A DNA stretch of 41,957 nucleotides. Origin: an uncultured Pseudomonadota bacterium (GTDB taxonomy: Bacteria > Myxococcota_A > Bradymonadia > Bradymonadales > GCA-2716585). Within the stretch, counting starts at the first letter, position 1. Every line of letters begins with the position of its first letter. Shown here one piece after another: positions 1,978-24,418 of the stretch. A program made the translations under genes and the position numbers. The notes under the pieces are model-generated. The model worked only from the letters and a program-made list of their open reading frames with translations. It had not been told where the DNA came from and searched no databases. The DNA is taken from the NCBI GenBank assembly GCA_937890335.1, contig CALBXO010000162.1:1-41957 (forward strand), given 5' to 3'.

Positions 1978-2139
1978 CTGGCCGATGAACCGAGGTGGTT
2001 CGACGCTTGCCGGGGCACCCGCTCCGACCCGGCCATCACGGGACAGCCCGGACTCGCCAGGGAGGCGAATGATCCATCGACAAGCAGTGGCCTGCGCCGC
2101 CTCCACTCCAATCTGGGACCCGCCCAGTGTTTCGCGGTG

Positions 2140-3510
<1,371 letters not shown>

Positions 3511-3619: not shown

Positions 3620-6085
3620 ATGGTGAATCCACAAGGGGATGCTGGGGTCCGGGCGCCGGCGGGTTTCCGGAATGTTGCTCTGGTGGGAACCGGGGCGACC
3701 AGCCGCGTGTACCGCGCGGTTGCATCAGACACCGGCCAACCGCGCGCGCTAAAGCGTCTCAACCGCCACCTGGTTCGCTCGCAGGACGCGCTGGCGCGGC
3801 TGCGCAGGGAGCTGGAGCTGCTGCGGAAGCTCCGCCATCCCGGCATCGTCTCCGTGTACGACGTGTTCCGGTGGGATGGCGACCCGACTCTCGTGATGGA
3901 CTTTGTCGAGGGCGCCGACCTTGAGGCGGTGGTGGCGGAGGCGGGCCGCCTTGCGCCCGCAGAGGTGGAGCGGATCGCGCGGTCCCTCTTTGACATCCTG
4001 GGCGCGACCCACGCGGCGGGCATCGTGCACCGGGACATCAAGCCGCAGAACGTGCGGCTGGGCTCCGACGGGCGCGTCTTCCTGCTGGACTTTGGGTCCG
4101 CACGCCTGGACGCTGCGTCGCAGCTCACTGCCACCGGCACGACCGTCGGCACGCCAGACTACATGGCCCCGGAGCTCTTTGCGGGCTCTGCGTACGACCC
4201 ACGCGTGGACATCTACGGTGTGGGGGCGACACTGTACGAGGCGCTCACTGGCGCCCCGCCGCAGTCCGCCGACAGCCTGGCCGCCCTGACGTGGCTGCGA
4301 CAGACCGAGGATGTGCGGCCGGTCTACCTCAAGGCGCCCGATACCCCGGCGCCTCTGGCACAAGTGGTGGATCGGTGTCTGGCCCGCGAGCCTGGGGCCC
4401 GGTACGCGTCGGCCTCGCATGCCGTGTGGGCGCTGGACAACCCGGCGGTGGAGCGGGCGTTCGCGCTGCACCGGTCGCGCTATCCACCCTGCGTCGAGTG
4501 CGACGCCCCGCTGCCGCCGACGTTGCGCAATTGTCCGAGCTGCGGGCGCGCTGGCGCGTTCTCGTTTGCACCGGGCGTCCACCACGTCGAGGTGGCCGGC
4601 CTGTCGGACCCCGCGCCATTCCTGCGCTGGGTGACCGGACGCTTCCCGGAGCTTCTGTCCGACCGCGCACGGATGATGGAGTGGTGCGCGGCCCTGTCTA
4701 CGGGCGGACGACGCTACCTCGCCTTCGTCTCGAAAGAAGATGCGGACGCGGAGGTAGCTCGACTGGCGGACGTTGGGGTCAGCGCAAGGTCCTTCCCGCA
4801 GCCTGTTGTGTCCCTGGTTGTGACGGTGGTTGCGGTCGCGCTGGTGTTGCACGGCCTCTCCTGGTTGCCCAACACCCTACTGGCCTCGGTGCTCTGCCTC
4901 GCGGTCGGTGCGAACTATTTTCTGACCGCGCTCTCGCGATACATCGGCAGCCGCGGGTCCCTGCTCGGCATGGGATGGATGGGCGCGTGGATCGGGGGTG
5001 GGGAATGGATCGCGATGGCGGCTGTCAGCGTGGCCTGGATGCTTCCCAAACGCTGGATGCCACAGGGTGACGCGTGGAGTTGGCTGACCTTCCCATGGAG
5101 AGTCCCGATTGAGATCCCACTCGACCCCGGGCTTGCCATCGCGGGCATCGCGCTGCCCGTGATGTTCGCTGCCATCCCTGCGACGTTTCTGGTTGCGAGG
5201 TTGCGCGGCAGCCGGCTGTACAGTGCCTCGTCGCCGCAGCCAAGTGTGCGGGTAGCGAGTTTGTTTGGGCAGATGCCTGAACGCAAGAGGCGCTCGGGGT
5301 CGCTGGTTCGCACCGGGGGCATGGCCCTGCTCATTGTGTTCGTGCTCACCCTGGAGGCGATGGGCGGGGGCGCGCTGGTGGGTCCGTTCTACAACGCCAG
5401 ACCAGAGATCAATCCGGTATCAGAATGGGTCGAGAGGCTGGGACGTGACCCACTCACCGAGGACAGTGATTTCGCCCCGGTCGCGTCGGTCGCGTCCGGC
5501 GCGGGTTCGGCGAGCGAGTCGGAGATCTCCGGGCCAGTGGATCTGCGCTCAGGTTTGGCCGTCGAACCCCAGACCGAGGTCGAAAATGAAGCCAAGAGCG
5601 CGTCCGTGGAGCAACCCGCAGGCGCCCAGTCCTGGCTGCTGCATCGAACGTCGTTCTGGTGGCTGTTGAACCTTGTACCGCTGTTGGTCTGTCTCGGCCT
5701 TGGAGTGCGCGCCTATCTGCGGCGACGCAGGGTTGCCGTGGAGGCGCGCGCACTCTCCTCGGAGGTCGGCGAGCTGTGGGGACCCGATCCCCCCACGGGC
5801 CGAGAGGAGGGTAGCGAGGACTGGGGGCCACCCGACGCCGACGGCTTTGTGCGGGCGGCGCTCGTGCGCACGCGACGCCTGTCGGCCTACCTTCCGCCCA
5901 GGCTCATGGACGAGGTGACGGCAGATCTCGATGGCTCGGCCCGGGGGTCCAGCCACGACGACAGCCTGTTGGCACAATGTGTTCTTGAGACCGACGACGA
6001 GCAGCTCGCGCGGTTCCGGTTTCTGTCCCTGGAGGGGGAGCTGGAGGCCGAGGCCGCCCAGGCATGGTGGGAGGCGCAGGCGTGA
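3620..6085 (+). CDS. Membrane Ser/Thr protein kinase with zinc ribbon (kinase A of tandem pair)
   Basis: The ~821-aa protein opens with a complete Hanks-type kinase domain (~17-275): a Gly-rich loop (GTGATSRVY), ATP lysine K45 (ALKRL), helix-C glutamate E64, HRDIKPQN with catalytic D139, DFG D157 and APE E185. All invariant residues are present, so it should be active. A zinc ribbon follows (C291, C294, C305, C308), then a ~75-residue alpha/beta region. The C-terminal half has about five or six hydrophobic helices, with an acidic Ser/Ala-rich stretch before the last one and a soluble tail. The start could be GTG 3617, ATG 3620 or GTG 3623; a GGGAG at 3613-3617 fits GTG 3623 best by spacing. 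It overlaps the next kinase by four bases (GTGA), so the two are translationally coupled. Confidence 0.93.
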   Translation: MVNPQGDAGVRAPAGFRNVALVGTGATSRVYRAVASDTGQPRALKRLNRHLVRSQDALARLRRELELLRKLRHPGIVSVYDVFRWDGDPTLVMDFVEGADLEAVVAEAGRLAPAEVERIARSLFDILGATHAAGIVHRDIKPQNVRLGSDGRVFLLDFGSARLDAASQLTATGTTVGTPDYMAPELFAGSAYDPRVDIYGVGATLYEALTGAPPQSADSLAALTWLRQTEDVRPVYLKAPDTPAPLAQVVDRCLAREPGARYASASHAVWALDNPAVERAFALHRSRYPPCVECDAPLPPTLRNCPSCGRAGAFSFAPGVHHVEVAGLSDPAPFLRWVTGRFPELLSDRARMMEWCAALSTGGRRYLAFVSKEDADAEVARLADVGVSARSFPQPVVSLVVTVVAVALVLHGLSWLPNTLLASVLCLAVGANYFLTALSRYIGSRGSLLGMGWMGAWIGGGEWIAMAAVSVAWMLPKRWMPQGDAWSWLTFPWRVPIEIPLDPGLAIAGIALPVMFAAIPATFLVARLRGSRLYSASSPQPSVRVASLFGQMPERKRRSGSLVRTGGMALLIVFVLTLEAMGGGALVGPFYNARPEINPVSEWVERLGRDPLTEDSDFAPVASVASGAGSASESEISGPVDLRSGLAVEPQTEVENEAKSASVEQPAGAQSWLLHRTSFWWLLNLVPLLVCLGLGVRAYLRRRRVAVEARALSSEVGELWGPDPPTGREEGSEDWGPPDADGFVRAALVRTRRLSAYLPPRLMDEVTADLDGSARGSSHDDSLLAQCVLETDDEQLARFRFLSLEGELEAEAAQAWWEAQA

Positions 6086-7923
6086 CCGAGTTGGGTTTCA
6101 ACCTGCTGCCCTCGGGCGCACGGGTCGCGGAACGGTACCGGGTGGTGTCCCTGCTGGGCGAGGGCGCCTACGCCGCCGTCTACCTGGCGCAGGATGAGAA
6201 GCTGGGCGTGGACGTGGCGCTCAAGGTCCTGGACCCGCTCCGCAGCGCAGACCCGGTGGGCCGCGGCCGGTTTGAGCGCGAGTACCAGATCCTCTCCCAG
6301 CTCGATCACCCGAACGTCGCGCGGAGCTACGCGGTGGAGCACACCGATGGCCTGGACGTGCTCGTGATGGAGTACGTGGAGGGCCCCACGCTGGAGGCGC
6401 GGCTCGAGTTGGGTCGCATGGAGGTCGCCGAGGCCCGCGCGGTGGGGGTGCAGCTGGCCGATGCCATGTGCGCCTGTCACGCCCAGGGCATCCTGCACCG
6501 CGACCTGAAGCCCGCCAATGTGGTCCTCCACCCGACCCGTGGGGCGGTGATCCTCGATTTTGGTGTGGCTTGGTTCAGCACGGCGATGAACCTCACCCGC
6601 ACCGGAGCGGTGGTCGGGTCGCCGCAGTACATGGCCCCGGAGATTTTTGCGTCGTCGGTGAGCGATGAGCGTGCCGATGTCTTCAGTCTCGGTGTCTGCC
6701 TGTTTGAGATGCTGTGCGGGTACGCGCCCGCCGTGGGAGCCAGCGTGGCCGAGTTGGCCACGAACACCTTGGGCCAGCACACTCCGCGGGTCGCCTCGGT
6801 GCGTCCTGGGATGGATCCGGGCATGGACGACATCGTCGCCAAGGCGTTGGAGCCCAACCCGCGCGACAGGTTCGCGACGGCGGACGAGCTGCGCGATGCG
6901 CTGCGCAGAAACATGGTGCGACGCACGGCGGCGCAACGGACGAGCCTGACCTGCGACCGCTGCACGACGCCCTGCATCATCGACGTGCCCTTCTGTCCGG
7001 GATGCGGCGCGCGCGTCGCGTGGACGTTGGAGGCCGGGCCCTACGCCGTGCAGATCGTTGAGGTGAAGGAGCCAGGCGCGTTTGCCCGGTGGCTGTCTCG
7101 GCGTCACTCCGAGCTGACGCGTCGGTCGGTTGCTGGAGCGACGAGCCGGCTGCGGCACCTCCCAGCGCCCCTGGCCGTGGGGGTGTCTGAGCGCAGCGCG
7201 CACCGCTTGGCGGCGGAGGCGGCGGACGTGGGCGCCAAGGTGGAGATCGTGCGGGCCTGGGGATTTGTGGGCGCGCGGGTGGAGGGGTCCGCCGCGACTG
7301 CCATGGAGACGTGCGTCGCGATGTTCTTCCACCTGGTGGTCACGCTCGCTCTGATGGTGTTGGCGGCGTGGGCCGGAGCGGGCTGGATCGCGGTCGCTGT
7401 GACACCGCTTGTGGGAGCGCTGCTGGGCGTTGTGGCTCTGCAGCCCTACATCCGGCTCGCGCTCTTGCGCCTACCGCGCGCGCAGGTCGAGGACGAGCGG
7501 GCGGATTGGACCGGGCCCCTGCGCGCCAGTCTGGGTACGCTGGAGAAGCCGCGAGCGAGGGCGTTGGCGGCGGCGGCCGTCACCCGAGCGTCCTCAATGC
7601 TGACCGGAGCCAGGGCTCCCAGCGCAGAGGCGCAGGCCGCGTTGTTTGACGCTGTCGATGCGGCGAAACGTGCAGACATTCACCTGCGTCTGTTGATGGC
7701 GCGGCCGCGTTCCCGGTTGGCCGCAGAACTTGTGGTCGCGCAACGTCAGGCTGAGGGGGGCAGCGCGGAGGCGCGACTCCGGGTGAACGCACTGGAGGAG
7801 GAAAAGGAGAGGCTCCTCGCCGCCTCCATCGCGCATGATCTGGAGACGCGGCGCGCGTTGGCGGCGTGTACCGAGATCAGCGCTGTGCTTGACCTGGTGG
7901 CTCCGTCTCCACACCCCGTCTGA
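6082..7923 (+). CDS. Membrane Ser/Thr protein kinase with zinc ribbon (kinase B of tandem pair)
   Basis: GTG 6082 is chosen because GGGAGG at 6069-6074 lies seven bases upstream and the start overlaps the previous stop as GTGA; an upstream ATG at 6064 would add six residues. The 613-aa product has a full kinase domain: GEGAYAAVY, lysine K48, HRDLKPAN with D141, DFG D159 and MAPEIF. A zinc ribbon follows with cysteines at 291, 294, 305 and 308, the same residue numbers as in kinase A. Next come an alpha/beta domain homologous to kinase A's, a two-helix membrane hairpin (~410-460) and an Ala/Arg/Glu-rich helical tail. It is convergent with the peptide importer operon. Its phosphorylation targets are not evident. 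Confidence 0.93.
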   Translation: MTELGFNLLPSGARVAERYRVVSLLGEGAYAAVYLAQDEKLGVDVALKVLDPLRSADPVGRGRFEREYQILSQLDHPNVARSYAVEHTDGLDVLVMEYVEGPTLEARLELGRMEVAEARAVGVQLADAMCACHAQGILHRDLKPANVVLHPTRGAVILDFGVAWFSTAMNLTRTGAVVGSPQYMAPEIFASSVSDERADVFSLGVCLFEMLCGYAPAVGASVAELATNTLGQHTPRVASVRPGMDPGMDDIVAKALEPNPRDRFATADELRDALRRNMVRRTAAQRTSLTCDRCTTPCIIDVPFCPGCGARVAWTLEAGPYAVQIVEVKEPGAFARWLSRRHSELTRRSVAGATSRLRHLPAPLAVGVSERSAHRLAAEAADVGAKVEIVRAWGFVGARVEGSAATAMETCVAMFFHLVVTLALMVLAAWAGAGWIAVAVTPLVGALLGVVALQPYIRLALLRLPRAQVEDERADWTGPLRASLGTLEKPRARALAAAAVTRASSMLTGARAPSAEAQAALFDAVDAAKRADIHLRLLMARPRSRLAAELVVAQRQAEGGSAEARLRVNALEEEKERLLAASIAHDLETRRALAACTEISAVLDLVAPSPHPV

Positions 7924-7973: not shown

Positions 7974-9269
7974 TCAGCTCTGGCTTTCGCTGTCGTCGCT
8001 CTCTTCCAGGTCGCCCCAGGAGGCCGCGTCGGGAAGATCCATCGCGCTGAACGCATCGGCTGGGGCATCCAGACTGACGGATGTCTCCGGCGCGGCGGGC
8101 TCGGCTGGCGCGGCAGCGGCTGGCGCAGCGGGTTCCGGCGGTGCGGCTACCGCGGCTGGTGCCACTGCCGCGGCTGCGGCCGCAGGGGTCGGCGAAGGAG
8201 CGGGCTCCGGCGCGGTCTTTTTGGCCTTTTGTCCGGCCAACTCCACCAGGAACGACTGGCTGATGCCGTCCGGGACCATCGCGCGGTACTCCGGGTCGTA
8301 GAGGTGGCACTTGACCAGGTGCCCGTTGTCCACGTCCAGCAGCTTGGGCTCCACCGTGTCGCACGGCTTGAAGCGTGCGGGGCAGCGGGTGTGGAAGCGG
8401 CAGCCGCTCGGCGGGTTGATGGGCGTCGGCACGTCACCGGTGAGGATGATGCGCTTCTTCTTCTTGCCGGGCACCGGGTGCGGAATGGCGCTGAGCAGCG
8501 CCTGCGCGTACGGGTGCAGCGTGTTCTCGTACAGTGCCTCGCACTCGCTCAGCTCCACCACCTGGCCCAGGTACATGACGGCCACGCGATCGCTGATGTG
8601 CTTCACGACGCTCAGGTCGTGGGCGATGAACATATAGCTGAGATTGTACTCCGCCTGGAGCTCCTCGAGCAGGTTGATGATCTGCGCCTGGACCGACACG
8701 TCCAAGGCGCTGACCGCCTCGTCGCAGACGATGAGGTCCGGGTTGAGTGCCACGGCGCGGGCGATGCCGATGCGCTGGCGCTGGCCGCCGGAGAACTCGT
8801 GGGGGTAGCGGTTGATGTAGCTGGGCTGCAGGCCGACGCGGACCAGAAGGTCCTTGATGCGGTCCCGGCGCTCGGACTCGGCCACGAGGCCGTGGTACAT
8901 CATCGCGTCCCCAATGAGCGAGTCCACGGTCATGCGCGGGTTCAGGCTCGAGTACGGGTCCTGGAAGATGATCTGCATCTTGGGCCGCAGCTTGCGCAGC
9001 GGCTCTCGGGCGAGATCAAAGATGTTCTGTCCGTCGAATTCGGCGCTGCCGGCGGTGGGCTCGATGAGCCGGAGGATCGTTCGGCCCACCGTGGTCTTGC
9101 CGCACCCCGACTCGCCCACGATCCCCAAGGTCTCGTTGCGACCGATGGTGAAGCTCACGTCATCTACGGCTTTGACATGTCCCACAGTCCGGCCAAACAG
9201 GCCGCGTTTGATGGGGAAGTACTTCTTGAGGTTATCGACCTTGAGCAGCGGCCGGTTCGTGGCGCTCAT
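7974..9269 (-). CDS. Peptide ABC importer ATPase, DppF/OppF family, with long C-terminal tail
   Basis: ATG 9269 overlaps the preceding ATPase stop as ATGA, which fixes the start; 431 aa. It has Walker A GESGCGKT (52-59), a Q-loop before DPYSSLNPR, signature [14 protein letters not shown], Walker [13 protein letters not shown] and switch His in FIAHDLSVV. The oligopeptide-family C-terminal signature with clustered cysteines follows (GCRFHTRCP, then CDTVEP and KCHLY), as found in Dpp/Opp ATPases that carry an Fe-S cluster-binding motif. The last ~90 residues are an Ala/Pro-rich segment ending in an acidic Ser/Asp patch, absent from typical members of about 330 aa. It powers peptide uptake as a heterodimer with the DppD-like ATPase. 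Confidence 0.93.
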
Positions 9270-10375
9270 TTTGCCCCCACTTCGGCCAGCGCCTCGGCGG
9301 TGCGGATCTCCACGGTGCCGCCGCCCTTGTACGGGCCGGTGCGCTCCTTGGTCTCCGCGATGACCTCGTCCGTGTAGTGACACGCGACAAAGTGGCCGGG
9401 GTGGATCTCGCGGTTGGGGGGCAGCTCGCAGCACTTCTCCGTGGCGAAGTCGCAGCGGCTCCGGAACCGGCAGCCCGTGGGGAACTCCAGCGGGCTGGGC
9501 ACCAGCCCCTCGATGGTCTCGAGCTTCTCGCTGCGACCGGCGATGTCCGGCAGCGAGCGGAACAGGGCCCGCGTGTAGGGGTGCGACGGACGCTCAAACA
9601 GCGTGTACACGTCCGCCTGCTCCGCGATCTGGCCGGCGTACATGACGACCACGTGGTCGCAGGTCTCCGCGACGACGCCCAGGTCGTGGGTGATGAGCAG
9701 CACGCTCATGCCGGTCTCTTCCTGGAGCCGGTTGATGAGGTCCAGGATCTGCGCTTGGATGGTGACGTCGAGCGCGGTGGTGGGCTCGTCCGCGATGAGC
9801 AGCTTGGGGTTGCACGCCAGCGCCATGGCGATCATGACGCGCTGCTTCATGCCGCCCGACATCTGGTGCGGGTACTCGTTGACGCGCTGCTCGGGGGACG
9901 GGATGCCGACCTTGCGGAGCATCTCGACGGAGATCTCGTGTGCCTCTTCGGGCTCCTTGCCCTGGTGCAGCATGATGGCCTCCGAGATCTGATTCCCGAC
10001 CGTGTAGACGGGGTTCAGGGAGGTCATCGGCTCCTGGAAGATGACGGAGATGTCGTTCCCTCGAATCCGGCGGAGGCCGTCGTCGTCGAGCTTCGCCAGG
10101 TCCTCGCCGTCAAACATGATCTCCCCGGCGACGATGCGTCCCGGGGGTTTGGGGATGAGGCCGATGATGGACATGGCGGTGACGGACTTGCCGCAGCCGG
10201 ACTCGCCGACGACGCCGAGCGTCTCACCTTTGAGGATGGAGTAGCTGACGCCATCCACGGAGCGCACGGCGCCCTGGTCGGTCAGGAACCACGTGCGTAG
10301 GTCCTTGAGCTCAAGCAGGCGCCTGGACGGCTCGCCGCGGGCACCACCGGTTGTCGCTTTTGAGGCGCTCGCCAT
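9266..10375 (-). CDS. Peptide ABC importer ATPase, DppD/OppD family
   Basis: The 369-aa cytoplasmic ATPase has Walker A GESGCGKS (57-64), the family-typical PMTSLNPV after the Q-loop, signature [15 protein letters not shown], Walker [13 protein letters not shown] and switch His in LITHDLGVV. The C-terminal oligopeptide domain has the [11 protein letters not shown] cysteine signature. Length and motif order are normal for DppD/OppD. Its start lies three bases after the permease stop and its own stop overlaps the next ATPase (ATGA). This is tight coupling, consistent with equimolar assembly of the two ATPases on the permease pair. Specificity (di- or oligopeptide, nickel, glutathione) cannot be read from the ATPase. 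Confidence 0.95.
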
Positions 10376-10378
10376 GAA

Positions 10379-11665
10379 CTACCTGCGCAGCTTCGGGTCG
10401 AGGGCGTCACGCAGACCCTCGCCGACAAGGTTGAGGAGGCTGACGGTGATGAAGATCGCGAAGCCTGGCGCCAGGATCATGATCAGCTCACCGTTCTGCT
10501 TTCCGATGTTCAGGGTCTCGCCCCAGCTGGGTGCGGACGCGTCGCCCAGGCCCAGGAAGCTCAGCGTCGCCTCGATGAGGATGCAGACCGCCACGCCGAA
10601 TGTGGCGTTGACGAGCACCGGGCTCAGCGCATTGGGGAGCACGTGCCGGAAGATGACTCGCCACTGGGGCACGCCACTGGCGACGGCCGCCGCGACAAAG
10701 TCCTCGCCGCGCAGCTTCAAGAACTCGCCGCGCACAAGGCGTGCCGGTCCCGTCCAACGCACCACGCCTATGATGAGCATGACATGCCATATCGTTGGGT
10801 CGTCCACGAAGGCCACGAGGGTCATGATCAGGAGCAGGGTGGGGAAGCAGCGCATGATCTCGATCAAGCGCAGCACGGCCATATCGACCTTACCGGCGAA
10901 GAAGCCGGCGAGCGCGCCGAGAATGACGCCGATGAAGAGGTAGATGGAGACCGCCACGACGCCGATGGTCAGGGCGATGCGCGTCCCGTAGATCATGCGG
11001 GCGAAGACATCGCGCCCGCGGTTGTCCGTGCCGAGCAGGTGGTTGCCGCCGGCGTCTACGAGGACCTCCGACAGCTCCGCGTTGCGGAATGACTGCGCCA
11101 CGGGCGGGAAGATCGCGGAGGGAATCTGCGTCGCCTCCTTGCCCGTGACCTTGGCCAGCTCCGACTGCGCCACGCCCTGCGCGTAGATGTCGCGGTAGTC
11201 CACAAACGGGTAGCTGGACGGATTCAGGCTGACGACGACAGTGACCACGACAAGCAACACCAGCCAGGTGCCCACCAGACGCCTCCACAGCTTGGAGCGG
11301 ATCTTGACGGGGTTGCCCTTGGCCATCCGCGCGATGACGAACCCGGACAGGATGGCCAGCGGCGACGCGACGAGCAGGATGTTGAAGAAGACGTCGATCC
11401 CGTTCTCGAACAGGAGGCGGTCGAACAGTGACCAGAACCACGGGAACTCGGTGACCGAGACGCCTTCTGCGTTGGCGTAGCTGATGTAGAACGGACGCTC
11501 GAGCACGATCACGGGCGCGTAGATGGCGAGCGCTACCAGGCCGATGGTGGCCCAGAAGCCGCCGTACGCGAGCTTGTTCTTCTTGAACTGGCCCCAGACG
11601 ATGGACCAGTAGGTCACCTCGTCTATGGCGTCGATGGGGACGCCGCCGTCTTGTTGTGAATCCAC
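10379..11665 (-). CDS. Peptide ABC importer permease, DppC/OppC family, enlarged
   Basis: GTG 11665 sits behind a GGGGG run that overlaps the upstream permease stop; 428 aa, compared with about 300 for typical DppC. After the family N-terminal helix there is an added region with two further hydrophobic segments (roughly residues 90-160) and a periplasmic stretch containing YRDIYAQG. The conserved core then follows: HLLGTDNRGRDVFAR, the membrane helices and the EAA coupling loop (EDFVAAAVASGVPQWRVIFRHVLPN). It ends in the family-typical GEGLRDALDPKLRR. It forms the inner-membrane channel with the DppB-like subunit. Confidence 0.93.
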   Translation of the reverse strand: MDSQQDGGVPIDAIDEVTYWSIVWGQFKKNKLAYGGFWATIGLVALAIYAPVIVLERPFYISYANAEGVSVTEFPWFWSLFDRLLFENGIDVFFNILLVASPLAILSGFVIARMAKGNPVKIRSKLWRRLVGTWLVLLVVVTVVVSLNPSSYPFVDYRDIYAQGVAQSELAKVTGKEATQIPSAIFPPVAQSFRNAELSEVLVDAGGNHLLGTDNRGRDVFARMIYGTRIALTIGVVAVSIYLFIGVILGALAGFFAGKVDMAVLRLIEIMRCFPTLLLIMTLVAFVDDPTIWHVMLIIGVVRWTGPARLVRGEFLKLRGEDFVAAAVASGVPQWRVIFRHVLPNALSPVLVNATFGVAVCILIEATLSFLGLGDASAPSWGETLNIGKQNGELIMILAPGFAIFITVSLLNLVGEGLRDALDPKLRR

Positions 11666-11674
11666 CTCGACCCC

Positions 11675-13429
11675 CTATTTGAAGCTGATGCGTGGGTCGA
11701 CCAACGCATAACTGAGGTCGCTGATCAGGAGGCCGAGCAGAGTCAGCGCGCTCTGGATCAAGAAGATGCCCATCACCGCGTTGTAGTCGCGCAGCGTGAT
11801 GGACTCGAACAGGTACAGACCCAGGCCGGGGATACCAAAGATGATCTCGATGACGATGGAGCCGCCGATGAGCGACGGCAGCACGCTGCCGAGCAGCGTC
11901 AGAATGGGAATCATTCCGTTGCGCACGGCGTGCTTGATGATCACGACGCCCTCGCTCAGGCCCTTGGCCCGCGCAGTGCGGATGTAGTCGGCGCGGATGA
12001 CGTCCAGCAGTCCGCTGCGCGCGTAGCGACTCAGCGCGGCCAGGCCACCGTAGGTCAGGCAGAACACGGGCAGGACCAGGTGGTACGCGATGTCCACCAG
12101 GTGCTCCAGGGTCGTGAACTCGGCCGCGGCCTGCGGTGACTCAAAGCGTCCGGTGGGGAACATGTTCACGGAATCAAACAGCACTACCTGCACGATGGTC
12201 GAGACGGACGCGAAGATGATAAGCGCCACGATGCCGGTGCCGAGGATGCGCCAGGGGCCGCGCCGCTCGGGATTCTTGATCATTTTGTGGGCGCTGAACG
12301 CCACGTAGAACAGCGTCACCGCCAGGATGATGCACTGGCCGACCGTCACGCCGGTCTGGGTGACCTCCGCGCCGGTGGCGGCGAGCTCCTGTGGCGTGGG
12401 CAAGCCTGGCCATAACTGCCAGTCTGGTCCGACTGTGAGCCAGTGCAGCAGCAGCACGCCCACAAAGAAGCTGGGGAGCGAATAGAGGGCGAACAGGACG
12501 ACCGTGAGCACCTTGTCCGCGAAGGTATCCTTCTTGACCGCCGAGAAGACACCCAGCGGTACCGCGATGAGGTAGATGAGCAGGACCGTCCCGAAGCTCA
12601 ACGTCAGCGAGTATTTGAGCTTGCCGACGATCTTCTCGAGGATCGGCTTGCGGTCCAGGCTGCTGACGCCGAGGTTCGGCGGCCAGCTGGCCAGGTTGTC
12701 CCAGTAGCGGAAGAAGCGCGTGTCGACGACGGTCTTGGCGGCGGTCTGACCGCCCGACAGCTCGTAGCGCCCCTTGTGTTTGGTGTACCAGGTGTCCCAA
12801 TTGGCCATCACCGCGGCCTTCTCCTCGGCCGTGGCGTCCTGCTCGTAGCGCCAGGTGAAGACGAGCGTGTTCTCCTGATCGACCTCGCGGTTGAACTGCT
12901 TGGTCTCGTCGGAGAGCTTGCCGGTGTCGAACTCACCGACCAGCTTGCGCTTGGAATTTACGGCCAGGCGTTGGACCGCGTACCAGCGGTACCGCTCGTC
13001 CGGGTGCGTCTTGGCGATGGAGTAGAGGTGGGCGACGATGTCGTTGCCCAGGTCCTCAATCTCGTCCTGGGTTCGGACCACATCGCCGATGGGCGGCTTG
13101 ACGCGGCAGTCGGCGCCGTCGGCGGGCTCGCAGGCCTCCTTGGCGTTGGGGTGCGTGAAGTCCAGGTACACCGACATCAAGGCGATGACATCGTCCTCGG
13201 ACATGGCCCAGCGCGTGTTGAGCAGGATGGGCTTGTCGAGGTTGAACTGCTCCTTGAAGATCCGGTAGCCCTCGTTGGCGTTCGCACTCTCGGCGGTGCT
13301 ACGGATCCCCTGCTGGCCGGCTTGTCCCGGTCTGCCAGGGGCAAAGTTCAGCACCAGAAAAATGATCAGAGACACGACGAAGAACGTCGGGATCATGATC
13401 AGCAGGCGCTTGACCGTGTAGGTGAACAT
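11675..13429 (-). CDS. Peptide ABC importer permease, DppB/OppB family, with large periplasmic insertions
   Basis: The protein is 584 aa, against about 310-340 for normal DppB. The N-terminal helix (KRLLIMIPTFFVVSLIIFLVL) and FAPGRPG are standard. The next recognisable helix (YSLTLSFGTVLLIYLIAVPLG) begins near residue 275 instead of near 100. The intervening ~175 extra residues are soluble and charged, rich in Trp/Tyr/Arg, with a WDTWYTKHKG motif. A second, smaller insertion of hydrophobic helices lies before the C-terminal core. The EAA loop (DYIRTARAKGLSEGVVIIKHAVRN) and the terminal DPRISF are intact, so the channel function is expected to be preserved. The insertion points to the periplasm, where it could contact the substrate-binding protein. 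Confidence 0.93.
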   Translation of the reverse strand: MFTYTVKRLLIMIPTFFVVSLIIFLVLNFAPGRPGQAGQQGIRSTAESANANEGYRIFKEQFNLDKPILLNTRWAMSEDDVIALMSVYLDFTHPNAKEACEPADGADCRVKPPIGDVVRTQDEIEDLGNDIVAHLYSIAKTHPDERYRWYAVQRLAVNSKRKLVGEFDTGKLSDETKQFNREVDQENTLVFTWRYEQDATAEEKAAVMANWDTWYTKHKGRYELSGGQTAAKTVVDTRFFRYWDNLASWPPNLGVSSLDRKPILEKIVGKLKYSLTLSFGTVLLIYLIAVPLGVFSAVKKDTFADKVLTVVLFALYSLPSFFVGVLLLHWLTVGPDWQLWPGLPTPQELAATGAEVTQTGVTVGQCIILAVTLFYVAFSAHKMIKNPERRGPWRILGTGIVALIIFASVSTIVQVVLFDSVNMFPTGRFESPQAAAEFTTLEHLVDIAYHLVLPVFCLTYGGLAALSRYARSGLLDVIRADYIRTARAKGLSEGVVIIKHAVRNGMIPILTLLGSVLPSLIGGSIVIEIIFGIPGLGLYLFESITLRDYNAVMGIFLIQSALTLLGLLISDLSYALVDPRISFK

Positions 13430-13444
13430 GCGGGAGGGCCCTGC

Positions 13445-15400
13445 CTACTTCTCTTTGATCCAGCCAAGCCGGTGCAGCGCGTGCGGGCGGGGCTTTTGAA
13501 TCTTGAAGTTCTGGTACCGCTCATTGGTGACGAACACCGTGGTGGGTACCGAGAAGAAGGTGTACGGCTGCTCCTCGTGCATGATCGCGTGGAATCGGTG
13601 GAACAGCTTGGTGCGCTCGGCCGGATCAAAGGTCTTGCGGCCTGTGTCGATGATCTCGTCGGCCTCGGCGTTCTTGAACGAGATGAAGTTGGAGGCCTTG
13701 GGCGCGTCGGCCTGGCTGGAGTGCCACAGCTGGTGCGGGTCCGGCTCCCAGTCCAGGCCCCAGCCGCCGGTGAACGCCTCAAAGTCCTTGTCCTCCATGC
13801 GCTTCTGCATGATGGGCCAGTCCAGCGGCGTGACGTTGAGGACGACGCCAATCTTGACCAGGTCCTCTTTGTAGATGTCGGCCAGCGCCTTGTACTCGGC
13901 GGAGTTGTTGTAGATGTAGAGTCGGAACTCGAATTTGGTCTTCTTGCCGCCGATGACCTTGTCACGGATGCCGTCACCGTCGCTGTCTACCCAGCCAGCC
14001 TCCTCCAGCAGGGCCTTGGCCTTGTTCAGGTCGAACGGGTACGGCTCGATGCTCTTGTCGTAGGCCGGTGACGAGTAGAAGAAGCCGCTGGTCACGACTT
14101 TGCCGAGACCCACCCAGACCTCGGAGAGGATGCGTTCGCGGTCAAACGCGTGGGTCATCGCCGTGCGGACGCGCTTGTCCTTGAACAGCTCGCTCTTCTG
14201 GTTCCAGCCGATGTAGCGGTAGGCCAGCCGGAGGAATTTGGTGATGGTGTAGCGGCCGTTCTTGAACGGCGAGTCGTCCTCACCCTCAAGGATCTCCTGG
14301 CGGTATTGGGTGGGGGTCATGGAGAAGAAGTCCACCTCGTTCTTCTTGAACATCAGGAGGCGGCGGTCGTTGTCCTTGACGACGTAGATGTTGATCTTGT
14401 CGATGGCCACGCGGCCGCCGAAGTAGTCCGGGAAGCGCTCCAGCTTGACGTACTCGCCGGGCTTGGCCTCGACGAAGCGGTAGGGACCGATGCCGATGGC
14501 GCGGTCGTTGTACCAGTGGCTGTTGAACTTCACGCCGATGATCTCGGGGGAGTAGGCGTTGCCATCCTCGTCATAGGCGTAGAGCCACCGCGGGACCGGG
14601 AAGATCTCCAGGGAGTAGGCCTTGGACTGGTAGGTCTTCTTGTTCCAGTGAAGCTTGAACTCGTAGTCGTTGATGATCTCGATGCGGTCGAAGTCGTCCT
14701 TGTAGTAGCCACGCTTGGACGCCGCGCCCTGCACCTTGTCGTCCAGCAGCATCTCAAAGAAGAACTTGAAGTCGTCGCTCGTCAGCTCGTGGTCTTTGTC
14801 CAACCACTTGTAGCGCGGGTTGGAGAAGTCCACGGCGGGCTTGTGCCATTTGACGCCCTTGCGCAGCTTGACGTGGTAGGTCTTGAAGTCGTCGCTGACG
14901 ATGACGCTTTGGGCCAGGTCTGCGTGCCACTTATTGGGGTCGGCGTAGCTGCGACGCGCGAGCAATCCGTGCACGAGCACGTCCTGGACGGCGCTCACGT
15001 CGGTGCTGCTCTCCACCAGGAAGTTCCAACCCTTGAAGTCGGACCCTGCCGGGATGTTGAGCGTTCCGCCGGGGACGGCGTCCGGTGCCATCAGGGGGGT
15101 GGGGTCCACGGAGACCAGCTGGCCCTTGGCGTCCGGGTCTTCCACGGTCAGTTTGACCGCGCCCGAATTGTCGCCACCGGCGTTCGCGGTCGTCCCGCCT
15201 CCGCCGTTGCCCACAGACACGCCCTTCTTGAGCCGGTCCTGGATGTCCGCCAGGTCCTTCTGGTTCTTGTCGACCTTCTGGCGAATCTCCAGCGTGGTCG
15301 CCTCGATGGAGTTGAACTGAACGACGTTGATCACGATCGCGATGAGCAGAGCCAGCATCAAGCCGGCCGTCATCAGCTGAACAGTGAGGTTCCTCGACAT
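13445..15400 (-). CDS. Peptide ABC importer substrate-binding protein (SBP family 5), membrane-anchored
   Basis: The 651-aa protein is the first gene of the importer operon, with AAGGG six bases before ATG 15400. It has an uncleaved-type signal anchor (~9-28) with no lipobox Cys, then a charged helical stretch (~31-60) predicted to be coiled coil, then a Gly/Asn linker. From ~105 onward it matches periplasmic family-5 binding proteins: GGTLNI, HVKLRKGVKWH, LTSDDF, GIGPYRF, the MFKKNEVDFF region, an LNKAKALLEEAGW repeat-like motif and a final WGLDWEPDP-type segment. Family members bind peptides, nickel or opines. Anchoring by a transmembrane helix rather than a lipid is unusual for a Gram-negative. 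All five importer genes are spaced by 15 bases or fewer, or overlap. Confidence 0.93.
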   Translation of the reverse strand: MSRNLTVQLMTAGLMLALLIAIVINVVQFNSIEATTLEIRQKVDKNQKDLADIQDRLKKGVSVGNGGGGTTANAGGDNSGAVKLTVEDPDAKGQLVSVDPTPLMAPDAVPGGTLNIPAGSDFKGWNFLVESSTDVSAVQDVLVHGLLARRSYADPNKWHADLAQSVIVSDDFKTYHVKLRKGVKWHKPAVDFSNPRYKWLDKDHELTSDDFKFFFEMLLDDKVQGAASKRGYYKDDFDRIEIINDYEFKLHWNKKTYQSKAYSLEIFPVPRWLYAYDEDGNAYSPEIIGVKFNSHWYNDRAIGIGPYRFVEAKPGEYVKLERFPDYFGGRVAIDKINIYVVKDNDRRLLMFKKNEVDFFSMTPTQYRQEILEGEDDSPFKNGRYTITKFLRLAYRYIGWNQKSELFKDKRVRTAMTHAFDRERILSEVWVGLGKVVTSGFFYSSPAYDKSIEPYPFDLNKAKALLEEAGWVDSDGDGIRDKVIGGKKTKFEFRLYIYNNSAEYKALADIYKEDLVKIGVVLNVTPLDWPIMQKRMEDKDFEAFTGGWGLDWEPDPHQLWHSSQADAPKASNFISFKNAEADEIIDTGRKTFDPAERTKLFHRFHAIMHEEQPYTFFSVPTTVFVTNERYQNFKIQKPRPHALHRLGWIKEK

Positions 15401-17923: not shown

Positions 17924-18757
17924 CTAATTGAGGTTGATCTGGGGAGCCTTGGCCGACATGACGGCGCCGGCTTTCATGTCCATCGTGGCGCCTGCCTCCT
18001 GCTTCCAGGTTGTGCCGGCTTTGAAATCCGTGGAGGTCCCCGACTCACATTTGATCGACATCATCGCCTTGATCTCAAGGTCCTTGCAGTCGAGCGTAAT
18101 GGTCTTCTTGGCCTTGATGAGGATGTCGCCGGTGTCGGTCTGGATCGTGATCAGCTTCTTGGGGACGTCGATCTCGAGCCACTGCTTGTTGTCCTTGTCG
18201 TAGAGCTGGATCTTCTCCTTGCCGTCCGTGTCGTCGAGCACGAGCTCGTTGGAGGCCTTGCTGCGAAGGCTGATCCTGCACTTGCCCTCTTCGTCGCTGA
18301 ACATGAGGACGTGGCCGCACCGGGACTGGAAGAAGCGGTAGTCGTTCTTGCCGTCCTGGTCGATGTTGGGGATTTTGCAGCAGGTGTCGTCCGGGGTGAC
18401 TTTGACCTTCTGCGGGAACTTGTCCTTGCCGTTCCAGACCTGGCCCATGAGGAACGGCTGGTTGGGGTCGCCGTTGAGGAAGGAGACGAGCACTTCGTCG
18501 TCCACCTCGGGCAGGGTGTAGAAGCCGCGGTCCTTGCCGGCCATCGGCGACGTGATCCGGGCCCACCAGGACTCGTCTTTGTCCGGGTCGAAGAAGTACG
18601 GAAGGCGAACCTTCACCATGTACTCGCCGTCCGGGTGCTTGTTGTTGGTGACGATGGCGACATGCACGCCAAAGAGGCGCTCAGCGGCGAGCTTGCCCTC
18701 CATGTTCTGGGCAGAGCCGCCGAGGCCAAAAATCGAACGGTAGGTTCCTCTCGACAC
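17924..18757 (-). CDS. Phage-tail/VgrG-like spike protein (baseplate gpV family)
   Basis: GTG 18757 with GGAG eight bases upstream is preferred over TTG 18796, giving 277 aa. Residues ~27-112 are the gpV/VgrG OB-fold: VAIVTNN, YMVKVRLPYF, WWARITSPMAGKDRGFYTLPEVDDEV as three short strands, and FLNGDPNQPFLMGQVWNG. The rest is a repetitive beta-rich needle with short valine/isoleucine/lysine strands (ITLDCKDLEIK, GTSTDFKAGTT, ATMDMKAGAV) typical of the trimeric spike helix. It lacks the large N-terminal hub domains of full VgrG (600+ aa), so it resembles the small spike of phage P2 or extracellular contractile injection systems. No sheath, tube or baseplate gene is in the window. It may supply a distant contractile machine. 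Confidence 0.86.
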   Translation of the reverse strand: MSRGTYRSIFGLGGSAQNMEGKLAAERLFGVHVAIVTNNKHPDGEYMVKVRLPYFFDPDKDESWWARITSPMAGKDRGFYTLPEVDDEVLVSFLNGDPNQPFLMGQVWNGKDKFPQKVKVTPDDTCCKIPNIDQDGKNDYRFFQSRCGHVLMFSDEEGKCRISLRSKASNELVLDDTDGKEKIQLYDKDNKQWLEIDVPKKLITIQTDTGDILIKAKKTITLDCKDLEIKAMMSIKCESGTSTDFKAGTTWKQEAGATMDMKAGAVMSAKAPQINLN

Positions 18758-18814
18758 GTGTCTTGCTCCGTCGTCGACCCAAGCAGTAGCCTTCAAGGTA
18801 GTCTGCTGTGGCGG

Positions 18815-20971
18815 TCACGGCAAGGCTTGGTAAATCGCCACGCGAAGGCGGCGCACGTCCGGCTCGTTGAGCCCACATGTGTTCTTGGGTCCGGGTCCCG
18901 CGACGATGGCCTCGCCGTCGGCGCTGGCGTCCCACCCGACGAAGATCTGGGCGTCGTTGGCCTCGGTCCCCGCGAAGATGTCGTTGCAGGTATAGCCCTC
19001 GCCGTCGCACAGGCAGCTGCGGTCGTCGCGCGCGTCGTGCCGCCACAAGGTGATCCCACAGGTGATGCTGGGTGTGTCGTCGGCGCAGGTGTGCATGCCA
19101 AGTGATCCGCCGTGGTTGGTCGCGCGGCTGTGGAGGGCGGTGAAGTTGGCGTCCGCGCGCGTGGTCAACTCGGCATCCCAGAGCAGCTCGTCCGTCTCGT
19201 CGTCCCAGCCGCGCAGCCGGAGGTCGGCGGCGACGCCAAAGCAGTTGTTCTCCCAGTTCCAGTCGATGTCGTCCGCCAGGGTATTGCGGAATCCTGCGCA
19301 TTGGACCCAGCCCTCCGGCGGCGCGGGGTCGACGAAGCGAGCGTCGGGGCTCAGCGTGGTGCCAGGGGGGTTGCAATCGTCGCGCAAGCCGCCCAGGCAG
19401 GGGCCGTCGAGCGGCGGCTCGCACACGTCTCCTACGTCGTCACCGTCGGTGTCGGTTTGCTCTGGGTTGATGTCCTGCGGGCAGTTGTCGCACGCGTCCC
19501 CCGCGCCGTCGCTGTCTGAATCGGCCTGCTCGGGATCGAACACGGTCCGGCAGACGTCGCAGAGATCGCCTGCGCCGTCCCCGTCGCCCCCATCCGTGTG
19601 GAAACGCGCCGTGTCTACGGCCGAGAAGCTGACCTGGTTGCGATCGGCTGGGGTGAGGCCGGTGGCGCCCGTGTCGGACTCGATGCCCTGGGTGTGGGTG
19701 CCACCGTCGGACGGACAGTCGATGCACACGACATCCACCGCCGAGTCCGCTTCACGCAGCACGATCTGGAAGCTGACGGGGTGGTCGTTGGGCCAATGCG
19801 GGACCTCGCTGAACATGACCACGAACTCGCGGTCCGGAGCGCGCCCCTGGACACCGTACCGGATGGACCCGCCGGCGGAGGGGTCGAGGTCCTCCCAATA
19901 GCCGGCGATCAGGGCGTTGGGCGCGGCGCTGTCTGGGAGCGTCTGGCCACCGGTGCCGGGCGAGGTGTCGTCGGCGAACGTGACAAAGCCGTTGCTTCCG
20001 ATGCGCACGCGCTCGCGAACGGTCCCATAGAATCGGAAGGTGAACGGAATCGTGAGCCAGCCGGACACCTGGTCGTCCCCCATTGCGATGGTCGTGGGCG
20101 GTACCGGTCGGACGCTGTGTTCGGCGAACGCAGCACGGGAGAAGAAGCGGTCGGAGTCGGCCTGGTCTGGGTTCTCGATGTGGGGGCAGTTGTCGCAGTT
20201 GTCGCCAAGTCCGTCGCGGTCGGAATCGACCTGGTCTGGGTCTTCAATCTGTGGGCAGACGTCACACGTGTCGCCGACCCCGTCGGCGTCAAAGTCGGAC
20301 TGGCCGGGATTGGACGCCGACGGACAATTGTCGCACGCATCGCCGAGCCCGTCGTCGTCGTCGTCCAACTGCTCTTCGTCGGACACGGAGGGACAGACAT
20401 CACAGGCGTCGCCCACGCCGTCGTCGTCTTCGTCCTGTTGGTCCGGGTCGGGGGTGTTGGGGCAAAGGTCGCAGGCGTCGCCCACGCCGTCATTGTCGGC
20501 GTCGCCCTGCGCCTCGTCCTTGAGCCCAGGGCATGTGTCGCACGCGTCACCGATCCCATCGGCGTCTGTGTCGCCCTGGTCGGCGTTGGCTGTGTCGGGG
20601 CAATTGTCGTCGGCGTCGGAGACCCCGTCGTCGTCCCCGTCTTCCGGTTCCGGCGTGTCCGGCGTGTCGGGAACGTCCGGTGTGTCCGGGATGTCCGTGA
20701 GGTCGGGCGCATCCGGGATGTCCGGGTCGTCCGGGTCGTCGTGTGCGTCAGCGATGTCCGAGGGATCTGAGGCGAGGTCGCCGCCGGAATCCGCCGCGCC
20801 AAGGTCCGGCTGGACGTCGCCTGCGACGTCGGGACTGTCGTCCTCGAGGTCCACGGTGCCATCGGCGACACCGCCATCCGGATTGTTGGTCATCTCGAGC
20901 TCGGGAACCGAGGGTGCGCCACCGGCGCATCCCACCAGCACGAGCAGTACGCAAAGAATCGAGCGAAACAT
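18815..20971 (-). CDS. TSP3-repeat lipoprotein with nested nidogen-like domain
   Basis: 718 aa from ATG 20971, signal peptide with lipobox LVGC (Cys15). An acidic Asp/Pro linker (DPDIPDAPD-type) is followed by about six calcium-binding thrombospondin type 3 repeats (pattern DxDxDGxGDxCDxCP, ~110-270). A beta domain follows (~273-455; IGSNGFVTF, IAGYWEDLDP, IRYGVQG, EFVVMFSEV, TQGIESDTGATG) resembling NIDO-type domains, then two more TSP3 repeats. The Cys-rich C-terminal ~190 residues (GWVQCAGFRNTLADDI, NNCFG, LWRHDARDDRSC) contain a module common in myxobacterial secreted proteins. It is probably a rigid, Ca2+-stabilised surface rod. It is first of the TSP3-spike-methyltransferase run and ends 57 bases before the spike start. 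Confidence 0.92.
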   Translation of the reverse strand: MFRSILCVLLVLVGCAGGAPSVPELEMTNNPDGGVADGTVDLEDDSPDVAGDVQPDLGAADSGGDLASDPSDIADAHDDPDDPDIPDAPDLTDIPDTPDVPDTPDTPEPEDGDDDGVSDADDNCPDTANADQGDTDADGIGDACDTCPGLKDEAQGDADNDGVGDACDLCPNTPDPDQQDEDDDGVGDACDVCPSVSDEEQLDDDDDGLGDACDNCPSASNPGQSDFDADGVGDTCDVCPQIEDPDQVDSDRDGLGDNCDNCPHIENPDQADSDRFFSRAAFAEHSVRPVPPTTIAMGDDQVSGWLTIPFTFRFYGTVRERVRIGSNGFVTFADDTSPGTGGQTLPDSAAPNALIAGYWEDLDPSAGGSIRYGVQGRAPDREFVVMFSEVPHWPNDHPVSFQIVLREADSAVDVVCIDCPSDGGTHTQGIESDTGATGLTPADRNQVSFSAVDTARFHTDGGDGDGAGDLCDVCRTVFDPEQADSDSDGAGDACDNCPQDINPEQTDTDGDDVGDVCEPPLDGPCLGGLRDDCNPPGTTLSPDARFVDPAPPEGWVQCAGFRNTLADDIDWNWENNCFGVAADLRLRGWDDETDELLWDAELTTRADANFTALHSRATNHGGSLGMHTCADDTPSITCGITLWRHDARDDRSCLCDGEGYTCNDIFAGTEANDAQIFVGWDASADGEAIVAGPGPKNTCGLNEPDVRRLRVAIYQALP
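20108..20660 (-). repeat. Tandem TSP3 coding repeats (Asp-rich, ~72 bp/unit)
   Basis: The coding region for the first six TSP3 modules shows diverged tandem units of about 66-75 bases, each carrying gtcgcacgcgtc-like codons for GDACD/GDNCD. Units differ at many third positions, so this is old duplication, not a fresh expansion. Confidence 0.6.
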
Positions 20972-21043
20972 CGAACACCTGAGGGCAGGACGCGTGCGCG
21001 TCAGCAGTCCGTCAGGCCAAACCCACCTGGGGTCTGTCTAGCG

Positions 21044-21454
21044 TCACACCAACTTGGTGTCGAGGGTGTAGCTCGTTTTCTCCGGTGAGGAGACTTCAAT
21101 GTAGTAGATGCCGGGGCTGACAGCGATGGTGATGCTGCGCGTACCGGCTTTGGCGGGCTTGGCTTTGGAGATGATGTTTCCCTTGGCGTCCGTGACCGTG
21201 AGCTCGGCTTTGGCGGTGCCGGGTTCAAAGGACACCGTGATCGTGAGATCTCCGGTTCCCTCTACGCGCACGTAGCGCCAGTCCGCGGCGTCCCCTGGCC
21301 CCAGGTTGTCCTGGACGGCGGCGCCAACGGCGGTCCGCCGGGCGCGGGTGCGCTTGCCGTCGATGTCTTTGGGACCGGCAACTGCGCTCGACGTGAGCGC
21401 GACAGCGCACAGCATCGCAAGCGCGGTGAGGAAGGGCCTGGCGGTGGACATCAT
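21044..21454 (-). CDS. Small secreted protein with PPC-like beta domain
   Basis: 136 aa with a clear Sec signal peptide (LTALAMLCAVALTSSAVA, cleavage after AVA). The mature part resembles bacterial pre-peptidase C-terminal (PPC) domains: ADWRYVRVEGTGDLTITVSFEPGTAKAELTVTD as separate strands, then the TRSITIAVSPGIYYIEVSSP strand pair ending in YTLDTKLV. Such domains are usually appendages to secreted enzymes; here the domain stands alone, probably periplasmic or secreted. Its start overlaps the EcsC-like stop by four bases (ATGA), a coupled pair. A second ATG at 21451 is also possible. Confidence 0.82.
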   Translation of the reverse strand: MMSTARPFLTALAMLCAVALTSSAVAGPKDIDGKRTRARRTAVGAAVQDNLGPGDAADWRYVRVEGTGDLTITVSFEPGTAKAELTVTDAKGNIISKAKPAKAGTRSITIAVSPGIYYIEVSSPEKTSYTLDTKLV

Positions 21455-22125
21455 GCGGCCTCGATGAAGTAGTCGCGAGCCCGTCGGCCCACGTACCGGG
21501 TCAGTTTCTTGTTGGACGTGTATCCGAGCACCACGCCGACCCCAAATGGGATCGCGCGCAGGAGCCCCCTCTGCGTAAAGCGCAGGCCGATCATCTTGAA
21601 CAATTGGATGAGCCAGCGTTTGGCCCGGGTCTTGAGCATGCGCTTGGCGACCTCAGTCAGGCTCTTGACGCTGAATCGTTTGAAGCTCAGCAGGCCCGCC
21701 TGGGTCGCGACGCCGAGTCCGGCGACCGCGTAGCACAGCCGCTGCTCGTCCTCCGTGCTGATGTCGCGCCCATACAGATGGGCCAGCGCCATCACCATCT
21801 CGATCTGGTACTTCATCGAGATGGCGAGGTCGGCGGCGGTCGCGCCCACGAGGGCCACCACAGTGCCAATGCCGGGGATGATGGAGGAGGCTGCGGTGAG
21901 CGAGCCCACGCGGCCGCAGGTGCGTGCGTAGCGCTCGATGATCTCGTTGGCCACGCTCAGGGTCTGGTCGTCGCCCTTGAGGTGGCGGGTCTTCTTGTGG
22001 GTGGAGACCTTCTCCTGCGCCTCTTGAACCACGGACTTGATCTCCGTGGGGCCGGCTACGATCGCCTCGACGGCGCGCAGCAGCAGGGGCTTGTCCTGGT
22101 CGGCGTCGGTCGAATCGAGAAACAT
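21451..22125 (-). CDS. EcsC-like family protein
   Basis: ATG 22125 has GGAG four bases upstream; an ORF extension to 22149 lacks one. 224 aa, with a Gly/Ala-rich hydrophobic core (SIIPGIGTVVALVGATAADLAIS) followed by ALAHLYGRDI and a second Gly-rich helix (YAVAGLGVATQAGLL), as in EcsC proteins, which are thought to be membrane-associated but have no known activity. The basic C-terminal part (KRMLKTRAKRWL) is cytoplasmic-like. It overlaps the PPC-like gene by ATGA and lies 79 bases after the flavoprotein gene. Function is unknown. Confidence 0.7.
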   Translation of the reverse strand: MFLDSTDADQDKPLLLRAVEAIVAGPTEIKSVVQEAQEKVSTHKKTRHLKGDDQTLSVANEIIERYARTCGRVGSLTAASSIIPGIGTVVALVGATAADLAISMKYQIEMVMALAHLYGRDISTEDEQRLCYAVAGLGVATQAGLLSFKRFSVKSLTEVAKRMLKTRAKRWLIQLFKMIGLRFTQRGLLRAIPFGVGVVLGYTSNKKLTRYVGRRARDYFIEAA

Positions 22126-22169
22126 CGGACTCCTTGCGTCAGGTCGCACTTGGCGACGCGTACAACACT

Positions 22170-22179
22170 AGAACGTTCT
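22170..22179. promoter_or_regulatory. Short perfect palindrome upstream of the EcsC-like gene
   Basis: AGAACGTTCT (10 bp, fully symmetric) lies 45 bases upstream of the EcsC-like start, in the only AT-moderate part of the 79-base gap. It could be an operator half-site pair. No adjacent promoter elements stand out. Confidence 0.2.
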
Positions 22180-22204
22180 TCGTCCGAGATCGATTCAGAG
22201 AGCG

Positions 22205-23314
22205 TTACAATCCCTTTGGAAGGGGCAGGGTAGCCCACTCGCCCCCGGTCCTGCCGGCGCGCGCCCACTCTCCCATCACCGCCAGTTTCTTGGTGAATGT
22301 GGGGATGGTTCCAGCGACCAGAAGCCGCGCCACTGATCGCGCAAGCTCGCCGCGCAGCTTCATCCCCGCGACCTGCGCGCGGCCGTCGTTGGGTCCAAGG
22401 CGGAGCACGCGCTCGATGGGCCAGGCGACCAGCGGCTCGTGGCTCGCACCGACGAGCTCCATCCGGGCGTTGTCCGCGGCCAGGTTGCCCATCTGCCAGT
22501 CGGTCACGGAGGTGGCGGGCCACGCGCGTCCCGACGACCGTGCGATCAGCGGGCCGACGCCAAAAACGTCGTGGCGTCCACGCACGGCGAGGTTGTCGGC
22601 GACGAGCAGGCGGCCCGCGTCATCGACGGGGAGGTCGGTGTCCGCAATCCAGCCAGGCGCCGAGCCCTCGCGCGCGTCGATCCGTAGGGACGCGTCGACC
22701 TCCTCGGTCACGATGCGGACCTGCGCCTCGTCGCCAAGGTCCACCTCTTCATCGGTCCACAGATAGACTTCAAACGGCGCCATCGCGCGGCTGGCCAGGG
22801 CGGTGCCGCAGCCCCATGCGAGCGCCGTCACCAGCTCGATGGCTCGCCTGCCGCTGCCCCGCACGAGGATGCGCTGCGAGCGCGCGTCCGCCACGGGCGC
22901 CGCGGCCAGCGAGAGGATCGAGCGGCTGATCCTGGCGGCGTCCGCCACGCGCGCGTAGGGCAGCCAGCCACCCGTCACTGGAGGAAGCACGGGCTGCGGG
23001 GCCAGGATCAAAAGATCGAAGTGGTACTCGGCGCCGGCGCCAAGGACGGTGCGTCGGTCCAGATCCAGCCCTGTGACGCGATCGTCGACACATTGCACGC
23101 GGCCGTCGTCGAGGAGGTCGTCCAGGCGAAGGCGTGCGGTGCGTGCCGTGGTCAGACCCGAGGCGATCTCCGGCAGCAGCGGGGTCCAATCCGCATACGC
23201 GCCGTCGTGCACGAAGACCGCGCGCACATTGCGACGGCCGTACAGGCCATCATCCAGGGCGCGCGCAGCGATGAGCGCCGCGCTCCCGCCACCGGCGATG
23301 CAGATTCGTTTCAC
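22205..23314 (-). CDS. NDH-2-like FAD/NAD(P)-dependent oxidoreductase, degenerate motifs
   Basis: 369 aa from GTG 23314, overlapping the Cys-rich lipoprotein stop as GTGA. The N-terminus is a dinucleotide-binding fold (RICIAGGGSAALIAARAL; GGGSAA in place of the usual GxGxxG with a following acidic residue), then WTPLLPEIASG as in type II NADH dehydrogenases, a DLLILAP strand and a second Rossmann segment (ILVRGSGRRAIELVTALA). The late FAD-contact motif is VFGVGPL, lacking the Asp of the usual FAxGD. The C-terminal ~60 residues have an amphipathic helix typical of membrane-peripheral NDH-2. It could be a flavoprotein with altered cofactor geometry, or a non-redox FAD-fold protein. Coupling with a secreted lipoprotein is unusual. 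Confidence 0.75.
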   Translation of the reverse strand: MKRICIAGGGSAALIAARALDDGLYGRRNVRAVFVHDGAYADWTPLLPEIASGLTTARTARLRLDDLLDDGRVQCVDDRVTGLDLDRRTVLGAGAEYHFDLLILAPQPVLPPVTGGWLPYARVADAARISRSILSLAAAPVADARSQRILVRGSGRRAIELVTALAWGCGTALASRAMAPFEVYLWTDEEVDLGDEAQVRIVTEEVDASLRIDAREGSAPGWIADTDLPVDDAGRLLVADNLAVRGRHDVFGVGPLIARSSGRAWPATSVTDWQMGNLAADNARMELVGASHEPLVAWPIERVLRLGPNDGRAQVAGMKLRGELARSVARLLVAGTIPTFTKKLAVMGEWARAGRTGGEWATLPLPKGL

Positions 23315-24405: not shown

Positions 24406-24418
24406 GATCTCCAATCGG

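Follow-up and report, generated by a model that had tools for sequence, protein, structure and literature searches.

The stretch of DNA analysed here (the window; 41,957 nucleotides) encodes two adjacent Hanks-type Ser/Thr kinases, kinase A and kinase B, in which the kinase domain is followed by the same succession of parts: a predicted zinc ribbon, a domain of about 75 residues and a transmembrane (TM) hairpin. On the evidence of profile searches and structural models, the domain behind the ribbon is a divergent relative of the C-terminal domain (CTD) of ribosomal protein L7/L12. Given that the paired layout recurs in other Myxococcota, A and B probably work as one membrane-bound signalling unit. 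The genes and their junction are as follows.

3620-6085 (+): kinase A, 821 aa; kinase, zinc ribbon, L12-like domain, TM hairpin, more TM helices and a predicted cytoplasmic tail
6082-7923 (+): kinase B, 613 aa from the GTG at 6082 (619 aa from the ATG at 6064); kinase, zinc ribbon, L12-like domain, TM hairpin and a helical tail
6082-6085 (+): GTGA, the start of kinase B over the stop of kinase A; 4-bp overlap

The tandem arrangement had been reported in an earlier note on this DNA, and both reading frames were found where that note had placed them. The GTG at 6082 is the likely start of B, because it yields a 4-bp overlap with the stop of A like that in both orthologous pairs, and the overlap is a sign that A and B may be translationally coupled. 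Both proteins belong to the Hanks-type Ser/Thr kinases (PF00069) by their Pfam E-values and complete set of motifs, and are 35% identical to each other.

3671-4408 (+): kinase domain of A, aa 18-263; Pfam Pkinase, E = 2.1e-46
6136-6882 (+): kinase domain of B; Pfam Pkinase, E = 8.4e-44; catalytic motifs intact

In A the catalytic motifs read GTGATSR, ALKRL, HRDIKPQN, DFG and APE, and the claim that the catalytic residues are intact holds for the G-loop, VAIK Lys, HRD, DFG and APE of both kinases alike. The top NCBIfam match of both kinase domains is NF033483, the PknB/Stk1 PASTA kinases, which likewise combine an N-terminal Hanks-type kinase with a membrane anchor. However, this family scored 203.8 and 246.4 bits over the kinase part alone, against a cut-off of 450, and a Pfam search detected no PASTA repeats in A or B; moreover, PASTA kinases have a single TM helix and an outside sensor, whereas the anchor of A and B is a hairpin or a multi-TM segment.

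Directly behind the kinase domain, both proteins carry four cysteines with identical spacing.

4490-4543 (+): predicted zinc ribbon of A, CX2CX10CX2C; Cys 291, 294, 305 and 308
6952-7005 (+): predicted zinc ribbon of B, CX2CX10CX2C

The earlier note had placed these cysteines at the same residue numbers in A and B. The common spacing is confirmed, and the B cysteines (297/300/311/314 from the ATG at 6064) do become 291/294/305/308, as in A, when counted from the GTG at 6082. The equality of numbers is nevertheless partly coincidence, as the first ribbon Cys of the B orthologs lies at residues 341 and 298; judged by sequence, the real signal is the spacing CX2CX10CX2C, and the absolute residue number is immaterial. 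Two conserved CXXC knuckles, as in a zinc ribbon, are present in A, B and related units, and the ribbon cysteines are invariant across a 12-row alignment of related proteins. Like the zinc ribbon and DZR families (PF12773, PF13240), these are four-Cys ribbons with CXXC pairs; they differ in that a single CX2CX10CX2C ribbon is fixed right behind the kinase and stays under the Pfam cut-off, DZR matching weakly at 15.7 bits in A (cut-off given as 27.3) and 12.4 bits in B.

The segment after the ribbon aligns between A and B with a local score of 69-79, compared with 27-32 ± 5-6 for shuffled sequences, and none of 2,000 shuffles reached that score, so the co-linearity noticed earlier is far above chance.

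4580-4798 (+): post-ribbon L7/L12-CTD-like domain of A, aa 321-393; order E-H-H-E-H-E in the AlphaFold2 (AF2) model
7033-7254 (+): post-ribbon L7/L12-CTD-like domain of B, by AF2 and Foldseek

AF2 models, built on six-row alignments, predicted a beta-alpha-alpha-beta-alpha-beta order in both domains, which is also that of the ribosomal L7/L12 CTD (PF00542; 1ctf). In the B model the pLDDT of the domain is mostly 80-89, with the elements E37-47, H50-60, H69-76, E81-87, H89-101 and E104-110. When the B domain was compared with the PDB by Foldseek, ranks 1-12 were all ribosomal L7/L12, followed by ClpS, which has the same fold; against 1ctf the TM-score was 0.83 by target length, with an rmsd of 1.9 Å over 71 alignment columns. 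For A, ClpS was the best match and L7/L12 was also found, all at lower confidence than for B, so that superposition on 1ctf is clear for B and weaker for A, and the L12-like fold is less certain for A. Matches of the A model to PBP3 were dismissed (TM-score 0.1 by target).

Sequence profiles pointed to the same family. A 12-row profile of the post-ribbon domain that contained no L12 row, searched against 177,635 PDB sequences, gave E. coli L7/L12 (1ctf) as its best match (E = 1.7e-5), and in hhalign a 45-row profile scored 24.2 against ribosomal L12 and 35.8 against other non-ribosomal L12-like domains, compared with 8.2 ± 1.7 and 8.4 ± 1.5 for column-shuffled controls. PF00542 itself matched neither A nor B, and one of 12 aligned relatives matched at E = 0.087. 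Were the domain instead ClpS-like, that is, an adaptor for N-degrons or an AAA protease, the kinases would be tied to regulated proteolysis; the common fold and the Foldseek ranking of A (ClpS falls behind L12 for B) speak for such a reading, but it is very improbable, because L7/L12 was the only coherent family in the profile search and ClpS was absent from its matches up to E = 10 in the same set of PDB sequences, leaving no sequence relation to ClpS detectable.

The earlier note had taken the domain to be unnamed, while accepting that a match to a known family without a zinc site would count against this. The L7/L12 CTD is such a family, and the domain is therefore no novelty in itself; what had looked unnamed is now read as the stalk fold of the ribosome put to another use, which Pfam overlooks in A and B. 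Unlike its ribosomal relative, it stands between the zinc ribbon and the TM hairpin of a kinase, and the sequences of A and B lack both features of a functional bL12, the N-terminal dimerisation domain and the GLGLKEAK segment; a ribosomal role is thus not implied. In the ribosomal stalk, the L7/L12 fold docks translation GTPases. By analogy, we infer that the domain in A and B may be a protein-docking surface rather than a ribosomal part. It might still dock to a translation GTPase factor or to the ribosome, so that the pair would sense translation or the state of the nascent chain at the membrane, and its homology to the very region with which L7/L12 touches translation factors argues in this direction. 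We regard this as improbable, however, since the GLGLKEAK signature is conserved in neither A nor B, surviving (as GLGLKEVE) only in the kinase-less relative L106, and since non-ribosomal L12-like domains are spread over numerous unrelated proteins in these genomes.

The L12-like domain is followed in both proteins by a pair of hydrophobic helices, beyond which A and B part company.

4805-4933 (+): TM hairpin of A, aa 396-414 and 420-438, by hydropathy; kept in both orthologs
7312-7440 (+): TM hairpin of B, by hydropathy and AF2 helices
5138-5707 (+): extra membrane part of A, TM helices 507-525, 569-587 and 678-696, with a 90-aa loop (588-677)

The matching hairpin described earlier is borne out by hydropathy and conserved in the orthologs, as are the extra helices of A, of which there are about four. 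Two TM helices were predicted for B and its two orthologs, compared with five strong ones in A and six in its orthologs; the sixth, near aa 450-475, is weak in A and clear in both A orthologs. A long loop of 57-90 residues precedes the last helix in A and its orthologs and, in A (588-677), is probably periplasmic. The extra membrane part is missing from B and its orthologs, and past the hairpin the alignment of A with B is near chance (1.7 sd; 145 of 2,000 shuffles).

Orthologous A-B pairs with the same membrane asymmetry were found in two other Myxococcota genomes.

L144:3472-5952 (-): A ortholog, 44% identical to A over its whole length
L144:1451-3475 (-): B ortholog, 44.5% identical to B
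L165:5968-8367 (+): A ortholog, Myxococcota bacterium IP29b_bin.29

The 44% and 44.5% identities of A and B are to the copies in Myxococcales bacterium isolate HKST-UBA02 (G336; pair at L164), and IP29b_bin.29 also has the B ortholog at L165. In a kinase tree, A and B formed two clades of three genomes each, both supported at 100/100, that were joined to each other with a support of 49/77. The sequences thus place A and B only weakly as sister kinases, and indicate that the A/B split is ancient and predates the divergence of the three genomes that keep the pair, which argues against a fresh local duplication. Of the gene duplication proposed in the earlier note, common descent stands, with ribbon, domain and hairpin kept and the membrane part diversified, whereas a recent, local event does not, and the sisterhood of A and B carries the weak support given above.

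Searches with bare sequences gave almost nothing and had made the post-kinase part look like an orphan, a view that was dropped when profile searches found relatives. These searches covered Myxococcota and favour units with the same ribbon spacing; at the GC-rich loci L144, L148, L151, L153 and L156, reading frames were assigned by frame. Across the phylum the module occurs in kinases from several families and in kinase-less proteins; the arrangements are tandem pairs (n = 13), single reading frames that hold two units (n = 6), single-unit kinases and the kinase-less proteins. The tandem pairs comprise the three orthologous A-B pairs and ten pairs in family f34, and 12 of the 13 have an exact 4-bp stop/start overlap. 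The two-unit reading frames come from six loci in order f2 and are roughly 1100-1440 aa long (some cut by contig ends). In the f34 pairs the G-loop and the VAIK Lys are missing from the second partner, and in four of the f2 fusions unit 1 reads HRN and GFG and has lost the aspartates of HRD and DFG, so both are pseudokinases by motif. As the dead units of f34 and f2 fall in different clades of the kinase tree, partner degeneration to a pseudokinase probably happened at least twice.

Single-unit kinases with the kinase, ribbon, L12-like domain and hairpin (L147, L154, L161, L162 and L163) show that pairing is not obligatory. Kinase-less proteins of about 440 aa from the window's class, whose tail is long and helical, also have the ribbon, L12-like domain and hairpin; in the coiled-coil proteins L074-L078 and L110, the ribbon spacing, domain and hairpin are as in A and B and the kinase domain is absent. 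In two further proteins, L081 and L089 (G055 and G038), a zinc ribbon, an L12-like domain and a TM helix precede a long region that appears trypsin-like by eye.

Taking these arrangements together with the asymmetry of the membrane parts, we favour, as fairly likely, a model in which A and B are two halves of one heteromeric membrane-anchored Ser/Thr kinase system. The observations that bear on it are the three orthologous pairs, the ten f34 pairs, the six fusions and the overlaps in 12 of 13 pairs, and it rests mainly on the fusions and the retained dead partners. Weighing against it are the single-unit kinases, the lack of a conserved third gene, the weak sisterhood of A and B and the less certain fold of the A domain. 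The hairpin topology and positive-inside charges would put both kinase domains on the cytoplasmic side, along with the ribbons, the L12-like domains and the tails. A and B would pair through the hairpin and tail and through the ribbon-L12-like module, which might lie directly beneath the membrane and serve for docking or coupling, and one partner would regulate the other, allosterically or by trans-phosphorylation. The extra helices of A, with their loop of about 60-90 residues, would provide the input and are a likely candidate for the sensor that B lacks.

Alternatively, A and B could be independent kinases that each answer a separate signal and act on separate targets, and that have stayed side by side since an old tandem duplication merely through operon inertia; the ribbon and L12-like domain could be mere inherited spacers or membrane adaptors. 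That all catalytic motifs are kept in both, that single units exist and that the regions past the hairpin no longer align would fit such independence, but we think it unlikely, as it accounts poorly for three A-B pairs kept over deep divergence, for the exact overlap in nearly every tandem pair, for the two-unit fusions and for the dead partners retained in two lineages. The heteromeric pair remains our preferred reading.

No conserved third gene accompanies the pair. An AmpG/Acatn-like MFS transporter (2137-3510, +) lies directly upstream of the kinases in the window, and an oligopeptide ABC transporter (Opp) operon (7974-15400, -) lies downstream on the opposite strand. Neither neighbour is found beside the pairs at L164 and L165, and a link to peptidoglycan recycling was dropped for this reason.

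Because none of the three components (kinase, ribbon and L12 fold) is of a new kind, A and B are a variant of membrane Ser/Thr kinases and not a categorically new system. The suggestion that the layout may be undescribed has so far held, in that we found no paper describing it in the open-access literature searched; within the phylum, however, it is widespread. More tentatively, and with the balance slightly against it, the pairs may represent an undescribed Myxococcota-wide class of two-partner kinases in which a ribbon plus an L7/L12-CTD fold couples or docks kinase and pseudokinase units at the membrane, with repeated dead partners and fusions. Myxococcota kinomes are very large and their wiring is mostly unknown, the genome of the window (an 8.6-Mb draft) having at least 155 kinase matches; recurrent pairs, coupled genes, natural fusions and kinase-pseudokinase pairs offer a concrete, testable prediction of partners.

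L12-CTD-like domains also occur in other settings. Non-ribosomal proteins of the window's class carry one N-terminally in multi-TM proteins of about 360-880 aa (L043, L047, L048, L055, L059 and L063) or C-terminally in proteins of about 400-930 aa (L042, L045, L046, L049-L053 and L056-L058). Two genomes from the family to which the window belongs have such a domain inside the RNA polymerase beta' subunit (RpoC): at aa 503-569 of L044 (G003:C23:1605-1805) it matches PF00542 with 35.8 bits, above the cut-off, and in the window's own genome, at aa 195-255 of L062 (G000:C661:12637-12819, -), it occupies the same site as in G003 and scores 13.7 bits, below the cut-off. Elsewhere in the window, a third kinase (39682-41271, +) has another layout, with a single TM helix and a low-complexity, Ala/Asp-rich C-terminal part. 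By eye, the region 18815-28015 (-) holds large Cys-rich and Asp/Pro-rich secreted or lipoprotein reading frames (718 and 1198 aa) with many repeated motifs, and is adjoined by a Vgr-like tip protein at 17924-18796.
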